Shown one piece after another: positions 24,328 through 34,321 of a stretch of DNA of 64,000 nt. Made by a program: the position numbers and the translations under genes. The first letter of the stretch is position 1, and each line of letters starts with the position of its first letter. The notes beneath the pieces are model-generated. The model was not told where the DNA came from and did not search any database. It saw only the letters and a list, made by a program, of their open reading frames with translations. The stretch covers positions 1 through 64,000 of the forward strand of contig JAEUVZ010000007.1 in assembly GCA_016786665.1 (NCBI GenBank). Reading direction: 5' to 3'. Origin of the DNA: Flavipsychrobacter sp. (GTDB taxonomy: Bacteria > Bacteroidota > Bacteroidia > Chitinophagales > Chitinophagaceae).

Positions 24328-24451
24328 GTATATACCAATACCTGGAAACCGGCAGTTGAATAACCAACGGTTAATTTATTTTTTTTAAGTGAAGCTCTCA
24401 CAAAATGACACTTACACACGTCTATCTGGTACACTCAATCAACACCTTTTT

Positions 24452-26782
24452 ATGAAAAAATTAATACCAATTCTATTGGCGCTACTGGGTAGCGGAGCGA
24501 TGCAAGCCGATGCGCAATGTACCTCTACCCTCAACTCCTCGTTTACCAATGTATGTTCGGGCGACTCGGTGTACCTGACGGCCGCACCAACCGGGCAACA
24601 GAACTATGAGTGGTTCCTGAACGGGACATCCATCGGTAGCGGGTCCTCGGCCTACTACCTGACCAATAACCTTACAGCGGGTACTTATGTCTTTGAGGTG
24701 GAAATAACAGACAACAACAATTGTGTGTCTACCTCCGCACCTCTTACCATAACCGTAAACACCGCACCTTCCATATCGCTGACCAACAACGGCCCCCTCT
24801 GTGTAGGCGGCACGCTGCAGTTATCGGCCACGGTGACGAATGCTACTGCCTACCAATGGAACGGCCCGCAGAGCTTCACCAGCTCACAGCTGAACCCAAG
24901 CATCAGCAACATACAGCAAAACCAGGGCGGCTGGTACTCGCTGGCAGCCACCAATGGTAACTGCACCGTTTCAGCCGGAACACAGGTGGTGGTAAATGGC
25001 AATACGCCTACCGTAACCGCCAGCGTAGACTCGGGCAGCAACACCTGTGTGGGTAGCTGGGTAATGTTTGACGGCGCAACCACCAACCTGACTGGTGTTA
25101 CTTACTCCTGGTCAGGACCGAACAATTTTACGTCTACCTCCGCCAATCCCTGGATATCCAGCGTTACTACAGCCGCATCCGGCGTATATACACTTACCGT
25201 AACCGGCACCGGCTGTTCGGGCACTGTAACGATAACCGATACAGCCCTGCTGAATGTAAACACGGTGCCTACCGTTACTGCCTCCAGCAATGGTGCGGTA
25301 TGTGTAGGTGGCACTATACAACTTAATGGGTCTGTAAGCGCCGGCACCTACTGGTGGTCTGGCCCTATGGGTTTCACTTCTACTTCGCTGAATCCAACGA
25401 TTTCCAATGCACAACTCACGCACTCCGGTACCTATACCTTAATGGCTAACAACGGTTGTTATGCCTCTGATGCAGTAAATATTTCTGTAATGAGCAACAA
25501 CCCTACGGTAAATGCAACTACCAGCGGCACTCTGTGCGTTTACGACAGCACCTTCGGCAATGGCGCATCTATCAATGCGATGGCCAGCGGCCTCAGCGGC
25601 GTTACCTACAGCTGGACGGGGCCGAACAGCTTCAGCTCTTCCTCCGCATACAACATGCTTAATAACACCTCTTCCGATGCGGGCACCTACACCGTTACCG
25701 TAACCGGTACTGGTTGCGCAGGCTCTGTAACGCTTACCGACAACGTATTTGTTTCCGGTGCGGCCTGCGATTCAGTATGGCCTGGTGATACGGATAACAG
25801 CTTTGAAGTAACCAACTGGGACCTGCTGAACATAGGTGTAGCTTACGGTGCCACCGGCACCGCCCGCACAGGCGCAAGCAATAACTGGATAGCTCAGTAT
25901 GCCACCGACTGGAACACAACATTTACCAATACCAACCAGAACCACAAGTATGCCGACTGTAACGGCGACGGCGTAGTGAACGGTAATGATACCGTGGCCG
26001 TAATGCTGAACTACGGACAGTGGCATAACAAAGGTGTGCACGTACCACTGGCTAAGTCTGCCTCTGACCCTGACCTGTATTTTGATATGGCTGGCGTTAC
26101 ACTCACTCCAGGCGCTACCGTTACCGTTCCCATCAAACTGGGTACGAGCAACCTGAACATGAACAACATCTATGGTATCGCGGCGTCTGTGAAGATACAA
26201 GGCATTACTCCTTCCTCTTCTATGAGCATCGTTTCCAATGGATGGATGGGCGACAACACGAACTCTATGGCGATAACAAAAGCGGTAAACAATAACCAAA
26301 CCGACTGGACACTGGTGCGCACCAACCACGCCAATGTAAGCGGCGATGGCACTATTGCCACACTTACCTTTACCGTACCAGCCGGCAGCGAAAACCAGAA
26401 CGTGCTGCTGTACTTTGAGAACGTAAAAATGATAGAAAACGACGGCTCCGAAATCACCAATTATAACCTGGTGGAAGACAACAGTGTAGTATATCCGCTG
26501 AGCGTGAATGCCGCTATCGCTAATGCCAGCAACGCCATTATAGTTCCTAACCCGAGCGATGCGCAAGCTAACGTACAATTTTCCCTGATGAGTGAAGCCA
26601 AACTGCACATTGCCGTTACCGATATTACCGGACGCGTGGTATGGAGCCAGGAACAAATGCACGCCGCAGGCGCACAATCCATTGCACTGCCTAATGCTAC
26701 CCTGGCACCGGGCATGTATCATGTTCAGCTCCGCGACAGCAAAGGTTCTGTAACTCAAAATATAAAGTGGGTGAAAAAGTAA
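24452..26782 (+). CDS. T9SS cargo: Ig-like repeats, dockerin-like loops, cohesin-like domain, sorting domain
   Basis: 776 aa secreted protein. Signal peptide MKKLIPILLALLGSGAMQADAQ. Residues about 25-440 hold four to five Ig/PKD-like repeats, each with a Cys pair and a Y-x-W-x-GP-x-x-F-x-S pattern (YQWNGPQSF, YSWSGPNNF, YWWSGPMGF, YSWTGPNSF). Residues about 445-525 hold two EF-hand-type calcium loops of dockerin form: D446-x-D-x-S ending D457, and DCNGDGVVNGND. Residues about 537-690 (LYFDMAGVTLTPGATVTVPIKLG, IYGIAASVKI, GTIATLTFTV) resemble a cohesin. The C-terminus (about 693-776: IVPNPSDAQANVQFS, DITGRVVWS, LAPGMYHVQL) is a type A T9SS sorting domain. It sits beside T9SS machinery. An adhesive or matrix role is an inference. 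No catalytic domain seen. Confidence 0.85.
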   Translation: MKKLIPILLALLGSGAMQADAQCTSTLNSSFTNVCSGDSVYLTAAPTGQQNYEWFLNGTSIGSGSSAYYLTNNLTAGTYVFEVEITDNNNCVSTSAPLTITVNTAPSISLTNNGPLCVGGTLQLSATVTNATAYQWNGPQSFTSSQLNPSISNIQQNQGGWYSLAATNGNCTVSAGTQVVVNGNTPTVTASVDSGSNTCVGSWVMFDGATTNLTGVTYSWSGPNNFTSTSANPWISSVTTAASGVYTLTVTGTGCSGTVTITDTALLNVNTVPTVTASSNGAVCVGGTIQLNGSVSAGTYWWSGPMGFTSTSLNPTISNAQLTHSGTYTLMANNGCYASDAVNISVMSNNPTVNATTSGTLCVYDSTFGNGASINAMASGLSGVTYSWTGPNSFSSSSAYNMLNNTSSDAGTYTVTVTGTGCAGSVTLTDNVFVSGAACDSVWPGDTDNSFEVTNWDLLNIGVAYGATGTARTGASNNWIAQYATDWNTTFTNTNQNHKYADCNGDGVVNGNDTVAVMLNYGQWHNKGVHVPLAKSASDPDLYFDMAGVTLTPGATVTVPIKLGTSNLNMNNIYGIAASVKIQGITPSSSMSIVSNGWMGDNTNSMAITKAVNNNQTDWTLVRTNHANVSGDGTIATLTFTVPAGSENQNVLLYFENVKMIENDGSEITNYNLVEDNSVVYPLSVNAAIANASNAIIVPNPSDAQANVQFSLMSEAKLHIAVTDITGRVVWSQEQMHAAGAQSIALPNATLAPGMYHVQLRDSKGSVTQNIKWVKK

Positions 26783-27053: not shown

Positions 27054-27087
27054 AAAAAAGCGGCTGCCTGTAAATAAGGCAGCCGCT
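27054..27087 (-). terminator. Intrinsic terminator after the PorG-like gene
   Basis: Perfect 11-bp stem (27059-27069 with 27077-27087); minus-strand downstream T run. Confidence 0.88.
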
Positions 27088-27110: not shown

Positions 27111-27980
27111 TTAGTTGCGGGAGAACGGCTGCATACATTTTGTTTTTATGTACTTAGGCAGGTTGCCGAATGCTTCCAGGTAGATACCTACGGATACGGT
27201 ACCGAACCAGTACCAATCGTTTGCACGGCTGTCACCACGCTGGTATTGGTAGTTAGGATTATAATTCACATCAGCACCGGGAACTGTATTTCCGCGGTAA
27301 GCCATCTGTACTGCCAGTTTGCTGCGGTATTCCATCAGTGTATCCAGGTTTACGTACGATTTGCTCACGTCATCAATATAGTCCGTGTTGGTATAGCGGA
27401 ATCCGAGCTCCGTGGTCAGCACCAATGTGCGGCCCATGAAGAACTTCATACCACCACCTATAGGGAAAGCGGAATTGATCACGTTATACTCCTTACGGTC
27501 AGGATATACGGGTATGCCCTGGCCTTCCGTGCTCAGCGGACGAAGGTACACGCGCTCGCCACGTGGGCCATCAGTGTACGGGTTGGAGTAGAATACCGAT
27601 ACGCCGGCGAACACATAAGGCGTAACGCGGCTGCGACGATTGAGGTCAATCGGCCAGAAGTTCACTTCCAGCCCGGCGTGCATTTCGAACAGGCGGGTTG
27701 CGAACCTCAGGTTGCGCTGGCGTTTCACCGGCACTTCCGAAAGGCTGTCTGCCGCCGTAAGATTTGCATAGTTAGCTCCTATACGCAGGCCCACGCGCGG
27801 GCTCATAAAATACTTATAGAAAACACCGGCCACCGGCTTGTACCCATAACCTGGGAACAGTTTATCCTGCAGGTCGCCATAATAATTGGCTACACCGGCA
27901 GAAAGCCCCGTTTCATGGTGTGCCTGCCCCGTAGCCAGTAAGGGGAGCAAAAAAGCAAGAGAAAATATAAAACGTTTCAA
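27111..27980 (-). CDS. porG: DUF6089/PorG-like outer-membrane beta-barrel protein
   Basis: 289 aa from a TTG start at 27980. The first 18 residues (LKRFIFSLAFLLPLLATG) form a clean signal peptide; ATG alternatives at 28049 and further up lie inside the terminator of the preceding gene and are rejected. The mature part begins HHETGLSAGVANYYGDLQDK and continues with alternating strands (GVFYKYFMSPRVGLRIGANYANL, YVFAGVSVFYSNPY, NSAFPIGGGMKFFMGRTLVLTTELGFRYTNTDYIDDV), typical of the family containing T9SS PorG, which links the PorK/N ring to the outer membrane. It follows the sortase gene on the same strand. True PorG versus a paralogue cannot be settled from sequence alone. Confidence 0.75.
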   Translation of the reverse strand: MKRFIFSLAFLLPLLATGQAHHETGLSAGVANYYGDLQDKLFPGYGYKPVAGVFYKYFMSPRVGLRIGANYANLTAADSLSEVPVKRQRNLRFATRLFEMHAGLEVNFWPIDLNRRSRVTPYVFAGVSVFYSNPYTDGPRGERVYLRPLSTEGQGIPVYPDRKEYNVINSAFPIGGGMKFFMGRTLVLTTELGFRYTNTDYIDDVSKSYVNLDTLMEYRSKLAVQMAYRGNTVPGADVNYNPNYQYQRGDSRANDWYWFGTVSVGIYLEAFGNLPKYIKTKCMQPFSRN

Positions 27981-28037
27981 TGGCTTACGTTTAGTTAAAA
28001 GATGAATACCGAAAGATAATACGTTTTTCTGGAAAAT

Positions 28038-28068
28038 AAAAAGCCGCATCAGCAGATGCGGCTTTTTT
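28038..28068. terminator. Hairpin between the sortase and PorG-like genes
   Basis: 8-bp GC-rich core stem (28043-28050 with 28055-28062) flanked by A5 and T6, so it can act on either strand. For the minus strand it ends the sortase transcript and supports the downstream TTG start of the PorG-like gene. Confidence 0.85.
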
Positions 28069-28082
28069 ACCATTACATTATA

Positions 28083-31000
28083 TTAACGCATAATATACAT
28101 CTTGCTGTATCCTTTCTGGTTGAATTTATCGGCGGCGCTTTCGCGGCGTTCAATATCTTCTCCATTTATTGTTGTTACCACCCGGTACAGGTACACGCCG
28201 TTACCCAGCAACTGGCCATATTGGTCTTTACCATCCCACTTGTATTCGGTTATGTTACGACCTACATGCAGCGGGCCAAGTTCCGCTTTGGTAATCTCCC
28301 TAACTACCTTACCCGATACCGTGAGTATTTGTATCTTGAATTGGTTCGGTATCTGCGAACCCGTCAGGGTAAACAGGAAGGCTGTAGACGTAGAGAAAGG
28401 ATTGGGGTAATTGAGCACATTAGTAATGGTTGACTTATTGATAACCTCGAAGGTCACTTTGTAGTCGGTGCTACCGCTCTGGTTACCCGCCTTATCCTTA
28501 CCATTCACCGACAACTCATAGAAGCCATCCTTCAGGAACGTAGGACGGTACTCTACTATAGCTTCGTTCTTCTCCGTGCTGGCGGCCGGGATGAATTTAG
28601 CCGTCACCCCGTCGAATACCAGGTCTTCATCTATGGAATTGTCCTTAATGTAGCGTATGTGCACTCTTATATCGCTGGAGTCATCCATCATCAGGAACTT
28701 ATTCTCATCCTTCAGCAATATTTTTATGAATGGCTTAGCCGACACGATATCCCTATCCAATATGTGGATGCCGTCAAACGTCACATCTATCAGCGGATTC
28801 AGCTTATCCACAAAAACACGAAATGGAATATAGCCGAGATTATTGGGATGATACTGTTCGGCCTGGTCATTATCCGGGTTCGCTTCTATAAACAGGAAAT
28901 TGGCACCAGGGTAGCTTGTTGGGTCAAATGATATACGGGCATGAAGGGTGTCATTACCGTTTAGCTTCTTGTAGCGCTGGCTGCTCAGCGTATGGGCTAT
29001 ACCATTACCATCTATTATCCGATACTTTACCAGCATGCTATCCATAGGCAGTCCTGAAAGTTCTTCAATAGCCACTTCCAGTTCACCATTCTGCCCTACG
29101 CTCAGGCTGTCGTTGAACGACAGGTGGGCGGCAGGGTTTAGTGCAGCTTCCGGTACCGGCTGATAATGCACCCGCCAGTAGTTGAGCTGGGCACTGGTGT
29201 TATTAATGGTATCCTTGCTAAACCACTCCATCTTCAGGCGTGGGTAGGCGCTGGTACTGATACCGGCAATGCTGGTATCCGTATTAAGCGTGCTGAACAG
29301 CTCCACTTCATTATAATTATTATCCAGGCCAGACACCTTTACATACACGCTGTCGTTTGTGCCGTTGTTGTCGTAGGCACTTGTTTTCCATTTCAGCGTT
29401 TCCCAGGCTTTCGCTGGGCCAATTACCTTGCTCACCATCAGGCCTTTATTCCTGCGAGATGGTATGGTCAGGTCCACTATAATCTTATCATTGGTACTGT
29501 CAGAGAATTCCTGTGTAATAGGCCAGTTAGCATCACCCTTCTTACACATCATAATGAACACACGCTTCTTGTTGAACGAGTCGATCTTATTGAAGCCCAG
29601 GTTTTTGAAAGCGTCGTAAAGGGTATTGTTACCCCCGTTATCCTGCTCCCAATCATTAGCGAATGCTGGTATGTAAAAAGGATCGTACACAAAATTGCGT
29701 ATGAGCACATAGTGGCCATTCGGTATGGCGTTGATAAAGTCGGTAGCCCATTGGCGGCTCTGCGGATTGCTCACGTCAAACTCGAAACACTCGCTATTGC
29801 GGGTATTGAAACAACGGGGATATGAGCCACCTGTTCCACCCACAGGGTTTATCCAGCGCTGACCAGTGAGGGTGTCAAACACAAACACTTGTACCGTTCC
29901 ATTAAAAGGTGAACAACCTGCTCTTTGTATATCCACATCGTTGAACATAACCTTCACGTCGTTGGTAGTAAAGGTGCTGTTAGCTGTCGTGAGCACTACG
30001 TTGGAGATACTAAGGTTATTGTTTACCTGTGTAAAATTGAACTGACGGCTGTTATCTACCGCCAATGTCTGGAAGCCATCTTTCAGGTATTGGAAATAGT
30101 GCGATTGGTTCCAACCATTCTGCTGGTTCAGATAGATGAAAGAACTGGTCGTCCAGACAGGCTGGCTGCCGTTGCCACTATCTACCGCAGCACGCCAGTA
30201 ATACACTACGCTGTCCTGGTAGCTCATTGCAGGCTTCCACTGTACCACACCACCTATGCTGGTAGTAGCAAATTGCTGGCGCATTGGGCTGTTAAACAGT
30301 TCCGTAGTATCTATCTCCATTTTGTAGTTAGCGCTCGGCTTAAATGGATTGAGTGTAGAGGCTTTCAGCGTAATGTCTTGCTTGCCTACTATCGCAAACT
30401 CGTGGGGCCATACCGGCACCAGCCTGTCTGAATAGATGAACACGCTGAAAGTTCCGCCGTTGTTCATCTCGCTGTTCTCGTCAAATTTTCCGTCGTAGTC
30501 AATTGTAGCGCGGTATTTATTAAGTCCTACATCAAATCCTTTATCTATCGGTACATTAACGATGTAGTCCTCTTTATTATACAAGTTCACGATAGGGTAA
30601 GTACCTACCAACGAAGTAACCCCCTGAGGATTGATATGCTCCACCTTTACATGCACCGTATCACTAATGGCTTTACCCAAGTTGAACGATGTGATCTTCA
30701 ACTGGAAAGAATCCAGCGCGGTAGTCACCGCACTGGGAATGCTCGACATGCTGGCATCTGATATGTGATAATCAGGCTTCGCAATGGAGTACACCGGTGT
30801 GGCAGGGTCGCCCAGCAATATCATACTTTCCACCTCGGTAAAGTTGAAGTTGTTGGCATTGTTTACCAGGTTGTAGGCTATCAGGGTAGTATCGTAGGCG
30901 TGGGTGTAGTGTGTACCCAGGGTATTCTGGTAGTTCAGCGTTCCCAGGGTCATGCCACGGTACCAGCGCTGAAGGTATGGTTCATGGAAACTGGTATAGC

Positions 31001-33140
31001 CCAGGTTATCCTGCGCCGTTACCGATATAGAACCTCCGGGAGCATTGATGTAGCGCTCACTGATAGTGCGCAGGATGTTGAGTTCAAATATCTGCGACAC
31101 GTCACAACCCAGCGCCATCAGGTGCGGTTGCCTTGGAGAGTTGGTATATTTCTCAGGGTCGTTCAGATTAAAGTCAAAACTACCTGCCGATGCGTGGCCA
31201 TGGAACGTAATCCAGTTTACACCACTGTCAATCATGGCGTCTACCAGCTCGCTACCCGCCTGGTCTATAGGCGTTATCGTGTTTTTGGCTATGGTAGTTA
31301 CCAGGGCACCCAACAACGGGTTCTTAATAATATTGGCTCCCTTGTTCAGTGTATTCAGTAGTGTGGTCTGGAGTGCTATATCACTACCGCCGGCTATATG
31401 GATGAATTTCTTCTTCCACAGTTCCGTTTCAAACGTAGGCATAGCGGCCGGAATTTGCGCAGCTTCGTATGCCTTTATTTTGGCCAGGAAGTTCCCGATC
31501 TCCATTCCGTTCCAGGCAGAGATACGACCAATCTTCACTTTCGACTTAAAATCGGAACCAAAGTTGGTGAAATCCACGTCAGAACCCGGATTACCGAATG
31601 TCGGTACTATGGGGAAAGGATAATTGTTCTGGTTTGCAAGATAGGTGCGGTACTTATCGTACAGTAGGCCACGGCCCAGCAATAGTGTGTACTCGGGCTT
31701 CTTCGTCCAGTTAGTATGGGCGTAGTACAGGAAGTTCTTAATCGACAGCGGATGAATATCCGTACCGTAGGCAAACTGATCATACAATTCTTCTACGTCG
31801 GCTACAATGGCGGTATAACCACCGCCCGCAGCAGAGGCGCGGTATTCACGGTATTTATTTACATAGTCCTGCCCGTCAGCGGCCAGGCGCAGCCTCTTGT
31901 GAGAAATGATCACAAAATCACCTTGATTAGCGACGCTTGTATAGTTGGTGAACTGTATATTCTTGGTAGGAGCTATAGTAGATGTAAAGTTGGTGTTCTG
32001 AGCCGCCAGTAACAGGTTACGGTCAGACAAAGACGCGTCTATGTAAAACCGGGTAACACCGGCAGTAGTAGTGATATCGCCTGTGTAAACTTTATTGTTG
32101 GTCAGATCATACAACAGCGGACTTACGCCACCATGTGCAAAGTTGGTAAACTCCAGGTATTGCGGATTGGCGTTCGCCTTCAGCGAAAAATTATAGTGAT
32201 TCAGGCCTGCGAGGTCACAATCGCGCGCATAGACCACTTCCGCCTGCGCGGTACCTATCAGGTGGAAGCCGTTGATGTTAAAGATGGTAGTGTACGAGAA
32301 CGTATTGTTGGCCTGAAACGCCGCAGGCGGAATTGAAATATTGAACTTCTTCGCGGTAGAGGGTTGCGGGTTCAGTTGCAATGTATCTACCTTTATCTGC
32401 TGCGCATTCAGGAATACGCGTATGGGCACCTGCGTTGCATACGGGTCTTGCGCTACCAGGTTGATGCGTATCGTAGCATTGGGGCCCAGTGGGTGAACGT
32501 TTGGCGTTTCCAACGTATAAGATGCCGGGTTATTGATGGGAACCGCGGCGTCTACCATTGCTTCAGCGCAGTCAAACTGTGCGGAGAACAGTTGGTCGGT
32601 AGAAGAATAGCTCGTTCCCGGAGTGTGTGCCGCGTGGAAGTATTTACCCGCAGTGTACCATGTATACAGTTCTGCCGGCGGTGGCGTACCGGGTATCGGT
32701 GTTGATACCGGGGTATAACGCAGGTAGTTTTGCAACCCGTAGCTCAGGAAGTAGGACGCGGTATCGGAAAACAGGCTGAGGCTGTCATTTACGTGCCAGT
32801 TCTGGTTATTGTATAGTTTTTTATCCAGTTGGCCATTGTTCGGGCGACCGTAAAATTCAATGTAGTCGCCAGAGCCCATCGCACCCGGTGTGGTTACATA
32901 CAGGGGTATCTGCTGGCCATCGCGGTACATAAAGAACTGGTTACCGGTTGTAGTACCGGGTATTCCCGCGGCATCCAGTACCGATTTGGGAATGCGGTAT
33001 ATACCTTCTTTCCCTACGCGAAACTTGTAGTAAGTCTTGCTGTAGTCTATCCATTCGTTCCCGAAGGTCTGCGCCTTTGCGGCTAGTCCGGCAATGAAGA
33101 AACAGCCGAGTAAAATGCTAAAGCGATATATGTTTCTCAT
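28083..33140 (-). CDS. porU: C25-family cysteine peptidase, putative T9SS sortase (PorU/PorU2-like)
   Basis: 1685 aa. Signal peptide MRNIYRFSILLGCFFIAGLAAKAQ; N-terminal beta domain (IDYSKTYYKFRVGKEGIYRI, GDYIEFYGRPNNGQLD); gingipain-like C25 catalytic domain about 405-790 with DFVIISHKRL, LLLGRGLLYD, likely catalytic H649 in TFHGHASAG and C679 in MALGCDVSQ, closing ILLGDPATPVY. Then CARDB-like and Ig-like modules, and a C-terminal FlgD/sorting-like fold (LNYPNPFS, TEYKWDGKDQYGQLLGNGVYLYRV). PorU cleaves cargo sorting domains and attaches A-LPS at the cell surface. Classical PorU is about 1100-1300 aa; this length and the CARDB modules fit the larger PorU2-type variant. Located 20 nt after the PorV-like gene on the same strand, as in known porV-porU pairs. 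Confidence 0.85.
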   Translation of the reverse strand: MRNIYRFSILLGCFFIAGLAAKAQTFGNEWIDYSKTYYKFRVGKEGIYRIPKSVLDAAGIPGTTTGNQFFMYRDGQQIPLYVTTPGAMGSGDYIEFYGRPNNGQLDKKLYNNQNWHVNDSLSLFSDTASYFLSYGLQNYLRYTPVSTPIPGTPPPAELYTWYTAGKYFHAAHTPGTSYSSTDQLFSAQFDCAEAMVDAAVPINNPASYTLETPNVHPLGPNATIRINLVAQDPYATQVPIRVFLNAQQIKVDTLQLNPQPSTAKKFNISIPPAAFQANNTFSYTTIFNINGFHLIGTAQAEVVYARDCDLAGLNHYNFSLKANANPQYLEFTNFAHGGVSPLLYDLTNNKVYTGDITTTAGVTRFYIDASLSDRNLLLAAQNTNFTSTIAPTKNIQFTNYTSVANQGDFVIISHKRLRLAADGQDYVNKYREYRASAAGGGYTAIVADVEELYDQFAYGTDIHPLSIKNFLYYAHTNWTKKPEYTLLLGRGLLYDKYRTYLANQNNYPFPIVPTFGNPGSDVDFTNFGSDFKSKVKIGRISAWNGMEIGNFLAKIKAYEAAQIPAAMPTFETELWKKKFIHIAGGSDIALQTTLLNTLNKGANIIKNPLLGALVTTIAKNTITPIDQAGSELVDAMIDSGVNWITFHGHASAGSFDFNLNDPEKYTNSPRQPHLMALGCDVSQIFELNILRTISERYINAPGGSISVTAQDNLGYTSFHEPYLQRWYRGMTLGTLNYQNTLGTHYTHAYDTTLIAYNLVNNANNFNFTEVESMILLGDPATPVYSIAKPDYHISDASMSSIPSAVTTALDSFQLKITSFNLGKAISDTVHVKVEHINPQGVTSLVGTYPIVNLYNKEDYIVNVPIDKGFDVGLNKYRATIDYDGKFDENSEMNNGGTFSVFIYSDRLVPVWPHEFAIVGKQDITLKASTLNPFKPSANYKMEIDTTELFNSPMRQQFATTSIGGVVQWKPAMSYQDSVVYYWRAAVDSGNGSQPVWTTSSFIYLNQQNGWNQSHYFQYLKDGFQTLAVDNSRQFNFTQVNNNLSISNVVLTTANSTFTTNDVKVMFNDVDIQRAGCSPFNGTVQVFVFDTLTGQRWINPVGGTGGSYPRCFNTRNSECFEFDVSNPQSRQWATDFINAIPNGHYVLIRNFVYDPFYIPAFANDWEQDNGGNNTLYDAFKNLGFNKIDSFNKKRVFIMMCKKGDANWPITQEFSDSTNDKIIVDLTIPSRRNKGLMVSKVIGPAKAWETLKWKTSAYDNNGTNDSVYVKVSGLDNNYNEVELFSTLNTDTSIAGISTSAYPRLKMEWFSKDTINNTSAQLNYWRVHYQPVPEAALNPAAHLSFNDSLSVGQNGELEVAIEELSGLPMDSMLVKYRIIDGNGIAHTLSSQRYKKLNGNDTLHARISFDPTSYPGANFLFIEANPDNDQAEQYHPNNLGYIPFRVFVDKLNPLIDVTFDGIHILDRDIVSAKPFIKILLKDENKFLMMDDSSDIRVHIRYIKDNSIDEDLVFDGVTAKFIPAASTEKNEAIVEYRPTFLKDGFYELSVNGKDKAGNQSGSTDYKVTFEVINKSTITNVLNYPNPFSTSTAFLFTLTGSQIPNQFKIQILTVSGKVVREITKAELGPLHVGRNITEYKWDGKDQYGQLLGNGVYLYRVVTTINGEDIERRESAADKFNQKGYSKMYIMR

Positions 33141-33160
33141 AAAATATTTTCAACTGGTTA

Positions 33161-34321
33161 TTAAGGGTTACGATTGTCGTATTCTTGTTCAGAACCATCC
33201 ATTTCCCTGCGGGTGGCCCCTTTAAAGAGGTCAACTCGGAGTGATATGATGTGTGTATACAGGGGATTGGACTGCGTGAGCAGGCTGGTGAAGGCGTAGT
33301 CTACTACAAAACCTTTCAACTTTAGCCCCAACCCTACAGAGGGCGAGAACAGTAATACTTTCTTCTGGTTCGTAGTATCGGCATCGTCTAGCACGCTTTG
33401 GAAGTTGCCCACACCTCCCCGCAGGAAGATCATGTTCTTATAGCTTCCTTCCAGCCCCAGGCGCGGGTCTACGCTTACGGCCTTGCTGCTGATGAGCGTG
33501 TTTCGCTTACCATCGGTGGTCATGTCAAAGCCCAGCTCGGCGAGGAATTGAAATTTATTATCCGAGGGAAGGAAATACCGGGACAGGCCGAAATTCAGCC
33601 GGGGCAGCATCACTTCATACGACTTTATGGGTATTTCATTGCCCGTCTTCTGAAACACTTCCTTGTCTTTCTCCGACAGGTTGAAGCTCCACGAGGTGTA
33701 GGTAGTAGTGATGTCCTTCGCCGTTATGCCAAAGCGCCACTCTTTATACTTACCCTGTATTCCCAGGTCTATTCCCAGGCCCCACGCGGTGGCCATCTTG
33801 CCCAGGTGGCGGTATATTACCTTAGCGTTACCACCTATAGAAGTTTGTATCTCTGTATTATTCTTAAACAGGTTAATACCTTGGGCATAAGAGAGCAGGA
33901 ATGCATAGTCGCCCGCGGTCATTGATTTCAGCTTGCTTTCATCAAAAGACCCATCAGGCTGCACATAGTCTATCGTATTGGGTATATCGTCTATAGCAAA
34001 CCGCATTACCGTAAAGCCAAGCGTACGCTTTTTATCCTTCAGGGGCATGGCCACGCTGGCATAGTCGTACTTAGCATTTCCGGAGAAGTACTCCGCATGC
34101 ATCAGGCCTACCTGGTAGTCCTGCTTTATGTTCATCAATCCTGCGGGGTTCCAATAGGCCGAAGTGACATCCGATGACGATGCAGATACTGCATTCGACA
34201 TAGCAAGTCCGCGTGCACCAACTCCTATATTCAGGTACTCATTCACATAGATCCTCTTTTGTGCATAGGCGCTTTGCAGCGATAAGGCGCAGAGGATTCC
34301 CAACGTAGCTTTTAGCTTCAT
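33161..34321 (-). CDS. porV: PorV/PorQ-family outer-membrane protein
   Basis: 386 aa. Signal peptide MKLKATLGILCALSLQSAYAQ, then the family motif VNEYLNIGVGARGLAMSNAVSASSSDVTSAYWNPAGL, which resembles FadL-like barrels. Strand-rich body with a conserved YFSGNAKYDYASVAMPL and RLGLEGSYKNMIFLRGGVG; ends LYTHIISLRVDLF and a short polar tail. PorV shuttles folded cargo from the SprA translocon to the PorU sortase at the outer membrane. Transcribed just ahead of the C25 sortase gene, which supports a matched pair. It may be the PorV2 type rather than canonical PorV; the sequence alone does not decide. Confidence 0.85.
   Translation of the reverse strand: MKLKATLGILCALSLQSAYAQKRIYVNEYLNIGVGARGLAMSNAVSASSSDVTSAYWNPAGLMNIKQDYQVGLMHAEYFSGNAKYDYASVAMPLKDKKRTLGFTVMRFAIDDIPNTIDYVQPDGSFDESKLKSMTAGDYAFLLSYAQGINLFKNNTEIQTSIGGNAKVIYRHLGKMATAWGLGIDLGIQGKYKEWRFGITAKDITTTYTSWSFNLSEKDKEVFQKTGNEIPIKSYEVMLPRLNFGLSRYFLPSDNKFQFLAELGFDMTTDGKRNTLISSKAVSVDPRLGLEGSYKNMIFLRGGVGNFQSVLDDADTTNQKKVLLFSPSVGLGLKLKGFVVDYAFTSLLTQSNPLYTHIISLRVDLFKGATRREMDGSEQEYDNRNP

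Follow-up and report, generated by a model that had tools for sequence, protein, structure and literature searches.

Does a locus in Flavipsychrobacter sp. that encodes a PorV-like protein, a C25 cysteine peptidase of 1685 residues and a PorG-like protein carry the main sortase of this organism or a second sortase-carrier pair, and what would a second pair do? Many Bacteroidota use the type IX secretion system (T9SS) to bring proteins to the cell surface, and work on its sortase rests on PorU. A preliminary description of the window (the whole stretch of 64,000 nucleotides that was analysed, positions 1 to 64,000 of contig JAEUVZ010000007.1) had placed the three genes in series on one strand, next to a T9SS cargo gene. 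All three open reading frames are indeed present on the minus strand, and the protein encoded beside them has a type A C-terminal domain (CTD). The features of the locus are as follows.

33161-34321, minus strand: porV2, encoding a PorV/PorQ-family outer-membrane protein of 386 aa (NF052325, 458 bits; cut-off 325).
28083-33140, minus strand: porU2, encoding a PorU2-family C25 cysteine peptidase of 1685 aa (NF052324, 654 bits; cut-off 450).
31194-31196, minus strand: codon of the catalytic His649 of porU2 (invariant in 124/124 PorU2 sequences; aligns with the His of PorU and of C25).
31104-31106, minus strand: codon of the catalytic Cys679 of porU2 (invariant in 124/124 PorU2 sequences; aligns with the Cys of PorU and of C25).
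28086-28409, minus strand: C-terminal domain of PorU2, residues 1578-1685 (match to residues 1044-1140 of PorU 6za2; conservation profile).
28038-28067, minus strand: intrinsic-terminator-like hairpin 3' of porU2, with 13 pairs, a 4-nt loop and a T-rich tail (fold z-score -5.6).
28011-28018, minus strand: TATCTTTC, a TAnnTTTG-like element upstream of porG2 (sequences read by eye).
27111-27980, minus strand: porG2, encoding a PorG paralogue of 289 aa from the likely TTG start (NF052316, 141 bits; cut-off 130).
27135-27137, minus strand: codon of the PorG2 C-tail cysteine (Cys313 of the reading frame as first read; kept in 26/26 PorG and PorG2 sequences).
27059-27087, no strand assigned: terminator-like hairpin, bidirectional, in the gap where porG2 and the cargo gene converge.
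24389-26782, plus strand: Ig-domain protein with a T9SS type A CTD, a possible cargo (TIGR04183, 43 bits).

A C25 peptidase encoded beside a PorV-family protein might have been the genome's main PorU sortase, but this identity is refuted by contig C46, which encodes, in this order, a GldJ-like protein, another PorU (1227 bits) and PorV (470 bits), and by a C25 tree of 61 rows in which 41 PorU2 and 20 PorU sequences are split with 100/100 support and the window protein lies in PorU2. The genome also encodes PorQ, and has two TIGR04189 matches to SprA, at least one of them, on C6, being full-length among the matches listed. The window peptidase matches NF052324, which models the N-terminal and C25 regions, from position 5 to position 879 of 879, whereas its score with the classical PorU model NF033707 is 146 bits, below the cut-off of 420; PorV2 likewise scores 31 bits with the classical PorV model (cut-off 250). 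The families, the paralogy and the tree therefore uphold the PorU2-type identity proposed in the preliminary description, which was also right in kind about a second pair of carrier and (putative) sortase. These two families are already named by NCBIfam, as "putative type IX secretion system sortase PorU2" and "PorV2", and the window pair is, judged from its sequence, an ordinary representative of them: it scores over almost the full length of the models, has the typical lengths and gene order, and shows no departure of its own, the adjoining PorG paralogue being a clade-specific extra. Our literature search found no experimental work on PorU2, nothing on this protein under the name PorV2, and nothing on a second pair in the literature on PorU in Chitinophaga. 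The sole other C25 protein in this genome has 748 aa and a type A CTD (L014:8313-10559), and is probably a gingipain-like secreted protease rather than a sortase. A further PorV/PorQ-family protein (L016:7564-8670; 116 bits) falls short of the equivalog cut-offs for PorV, PorQ and PorV2, and its gene adjoins genes for proteins of 1335 and 1285 aa.

The Pfam C25 domain of PorU2 covers residues 409-782 (E 3e-44). In an alignment, His649 and Cys679, which had been put forward as the catalytic dyad, coincide with the His and Cys both of the PorU encoded in this genome and of a gingipain-like C25 peptidase. Both residues are unchanged in 31/31 PorU2 sequences and, in the larger alignment, in all 124. 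Residues 25-800, modelled with AlphaFold (pLDDT 87, pTM 0.89), have a predicted PorU-like fold, whose top PDB match is PorU 6za2 (E 2e-25) and whose second is gingipain K. The CARDB-like modules described earlier rest on one sub-threshold Pfam match (E 0.11), although the model of the C-terminal half (pLDDT 86, pTM 0.59) does consist of beta-sandwich domains strung in a chain. PDB matches of this half to alpha-2-macroglobulin and complement proteins have TM-scores below 0.2, and hence reflect only the presence of beta-sandwich chains. Conservation along the protein is highest in the final ~110 residues, and this domain resembles the C-terminal domain of PorU itself and is FlgD_ig/Por_Secre_tail-like. 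With PorU of the Porphyromonas gingivalis PorU-PorV pair (6za2), PorU2 shares the N-terminal, C25 and Ig-type domains followed by a C-terminal domain of its own, the His/Cys dyad and a PorV-family partner, but it is ~400-550 aa longer, belongs to a separate clade and is encoded in the order porV2-porU2 rather than porU-porV. Gingipains have the catalytic C25 domain and dyad in common with PorU2; they are, however, cleaved T9SS cargo, whereas in PorU2 the flanking domains are PorU-like and the partner resembles a carrier.

PorU2 is present in 212 of the 296 genomes in a class-wide sample of Bacteroidia, the majority of these 212 also having PorU. The protein nearly always has 1660-1750 aa, so the length that made the window peptidase look oversized is the norm for the family. 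Of 79 named loci, which come nearly all from Chitinophagales, almost every one with a readable position has porV2 directly upstream of porU2, mostly at a spacing of -4 to ~35 bp (20 bp in the window), and a gene of ~425 aa, which we take to encode tyrosyl-tRNA synthetase, usually diverges upstream. PorV2 and PorU2 are a conserved pair. Downstream of porU2, no conserved third gene was found among the loci of relatives; unrelated Hsp70-like, carbamoyltransferase-like, RNase R-like and PIG-L-like genes occupy that position elsewhere (sequences read by eye). One locus (L068) has a single porV2 flanked by two PorU2-type genes, and the PorU2 genes of two others, with in-frame stops (L033, in G224) or split over two reading frames (L168, in G399), are possible pseudogenes or sequencing errors. 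There is also a second PorU2-like subfamily of ~1635-1690 aa whose last domain is a canonical type A CTD (TIGR04183, E ~1e-15), with members L140/L224 (G243 C76:211960-216843), L135 (G298), G342 C2:1505989-1510860 and G358 C469; to judge by this ending, these proteins look as if they were themselves exported as cargo, and some of them group together with support in the C25 tree.

The reading frame of the PorG-like gene was first taken as 27111-28073, and the N-termini of PorG in relatives indicate that porG2 probably starts at the TTG at 27980 rather than at 28073. A terminator-type hairpin after porU2, like that in the window, is also seen in G331 and G319. The motif TAnCTTTCG is found again ahead of porG in most relatives whose sequences were read by eye, and the TAnnTTTG-like element upstream of porG2 is presumably a Bacteroidota -7-type promoter. 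Moreover, porG adjoins porU2 only in the window's own clade, which comprises its genus (G331, G403) together with G319, G306, G389, G313, G393 and L051. The hairpin, with its z-score of -5.6, the recurring promoter-like element and the clade-specific adjacency suggest that porG2 is probably a transcription unit of its own, outside the porV2-porU2 operon. The genes do lie in series on one strand, as described, but the hairpin between porU2 and porG2 speaks against a single operon, and PorG is not a fixed member of the set. Three PorG-like genes are present in this genome, namely the window copy, a classical one (C17, L018) and a weak one beside SprA. The last (L015:9210-10181; 88 bits, below the cut-off) does not have the C-tail cysteine, and some relatives have similar SprA-adjacent copies. 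The porU2-adjacent PorGs fall into a second clade of PorG; in sister genera, the genes for members of this clade are located elsewhere in the genome, and all genomes with compared PorGs also carry a classical PorG. PorG2 resembles the PorG of Flavobacterium johnsoniae and P. gingivalis in scoring above the PorG cut-off and in keeping the C-tail cysteine, but differs in falling in this second clade, beside a classical copy in the same genomes. In F. johnsoniae, PorG is disulfide-bonded to GldK through its C-tail cysteine motif, which is important for type A export; that work also offers the speculation that carriers are pushed out of the translocon by PorG (PMC12635249). A role for PorG2 together with PorV2 is something that we infer from proximity.

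Within a sample of 120 Chitinophagaceae genomes that are at least 95% complete, PorU and PorU2 occur together in 50, PorU2 alone in 36, PorU alone in 23, and neither of them in 11; outside this family, the class sample contains a single genome with PorU2 and no PorU, which is 92% complete. SprA, PorV and at least seven type A CTD matches are retained in 34 of the 36 PorU2-only genomes, where full C25 domains occur only in long PorU2-type proteins, a few weak partial matches aside. One of the PorU2-only genomes is that of Thermoflavifilum thermophilum DSM 14807 (G034, identical to L084), which encodes PorV2, SprA and PorV and has 7 type A CTD matches. At 7 of 11 porV loci in PorU2-only genomes (G386, G034, G390, G333, G203, G342 and G360), gldJ and porV are side by side with nothing of porU between them, which rules out an assembly gap as the cause of its absence there; at the remaining four (G388, G311, G350 and G375) porV has neither porU nor a recognised gldJ as a neighbour. 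A genome of the same genus as G386 (G303) retains gldJ-porU-porV, and the flanking proteins are 80-89% identical. In addition, PorU is present in one species and absent from another in each of the genera g174, g176 and g202 (draft assemblies being a caveat), which suggests that porU has been lost repeatedly. Since PorU2 is the sole recognised C25 sortase beside ordinary type A cargo in 34 genomes, its duties arguably overlap with those of PorU and are not strictly separate, provided that PorU2 does process cargo. Mutual replacement of the two proteins was considered and rejected; their presence and absence in Chitinophagaceae are statistically independent (Fisher p 0.41), and so there is no sign that one compensates for the other. 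Among PorU-less genomes, the median number of type A CTD matches is at least 44 with PorU2 and 17 with neither protein (Mann-Whitney p 0.0008, uncorrected for phylogeny), and a regression of CTD counts (at least 44 at the top) that includes genome size gives positive coefficients for both PorU and PorU2, again uncorrected for phylogeny. The window genome itself has at least 44 such TIGR04183 matches, the neighbouring Ig-domain protein being one of them. Ten Chitinophagaceae genomes (G302, G308, G309, G323, G339, G343, G356, G373, G391 and G398) have neither PorU nor PorU2, yet keep SprA and PorV along with 9-37 matches to type A CTDs. A C25 sortase is thus not strictly required, and is dispensable in some lineages. 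One marginal partial C25 match is seen in G308.

The reading that we prefer, at roughly even confidence, is that porV2-porU2 encodes a second T9SS attachment module. PorV2 would be a PorV-like outer-membrane carrier and PorU2 a secreted C25 cysteine peptidase of the cell surface, probably docked on PorV2 through its own uncleaved and strongly conserved C-terminal domain. PorU2 would process the CTDs of all or a subset of the exported proteins in parallel to PorU, and the SprA translocon would be common to the PorU-PorV and PorU2-PorV2 pairs. The C-tail cysteine of PorG2 might tie this protein to the GldK track or ring, and PorG2 could help to drive release of the carrier. This reading is based on family assignments above the cut-offs in a genome with a separate PorU, PorV and PorQ, on the invariant dyad, the PorU-like model and the PorU-like conserved C-terminal domain, and on the conserved adjacency of the pair and the PorG2 tail cysteine. 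It also draws on the retention of SprA, PorV and cargo in 34/36 PorU2-only genomes and on their higher CTD counts. We count against it the genus g186, the ten genomes with neither gene and the independence of PorU and PorU2.

The two single-contig genomes of genus g186 (G315 = L160 and G395 = L161) have no SprA or PorV and almost no CTD proteins, yet they retain PorV2 and PorU2 at full length, in unchanged synteny (including the ~425-aa gene) and with both dyad residues. The two PorU2 proteins are 63.5% identical, with dS between their genes saturated, and this level of identity means that the reading frames have stayed open over a long divergence. PorU2 may therefore have a role beyond the T9SS and be more than a T9SS sortase. 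These genomes, together with the independent losses of PorU and PorU2, would be expected if the two proteins were an outer-membrane protease-porin pair, akin to the sortase only by descent, with another task such as maturing a non-T9SS surface or cell-envelope protein. We consider this somewhat unlikely, because the T9SS and its cargo persist in the other 34 PorU2-only genomes, the C-terminus of PorU2 is PorU- and CTD-like, and its partner belongs to the PorV family. Moreover, the PorU2 of g186 would still need an export route, so that a diverged translocon missed by TIGR04189 is possible; in g186, then, either a diverged export route is present or PorU2-PorV2 has a role outside the T9SS. Another reading, which we hold to be unlikely, is that PorV2-PorU2 is an outer-membrane protease module able to work without the type IX translocon and that, where a T9SS is present, it can stand in as the sole C25 sortase after repeated deletion of porU. 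Equally doubtful to us is the distinct cargo set raised in the preliminary description, under which PorV2 would recognise a different class of CTD and PorU2 would process only this subset. Most PorU2-bearing Bacteroidia do keep PorU as well, and the independent loss of the two proteins in Chitinophagaceae fits separate duties; nevertheless, ordinary type A CTDs recognised by TIGR04183 persist in PorU2-only genomes, type B and other classes being outside this count.

The pair consists of a widespread second C25 sortase-like enzyme and its carrier-like partner, named in databases with a putative function. Genus g186 provides a second, independent test case for the function of PorU2-PorV2. The main interest lies in the porU-less relatives, because the porU2-bearing Chitinophagaceae among them, which include a named type strain (two-contig genome), would allow the function of PorU2 to be tested without a double mutant.
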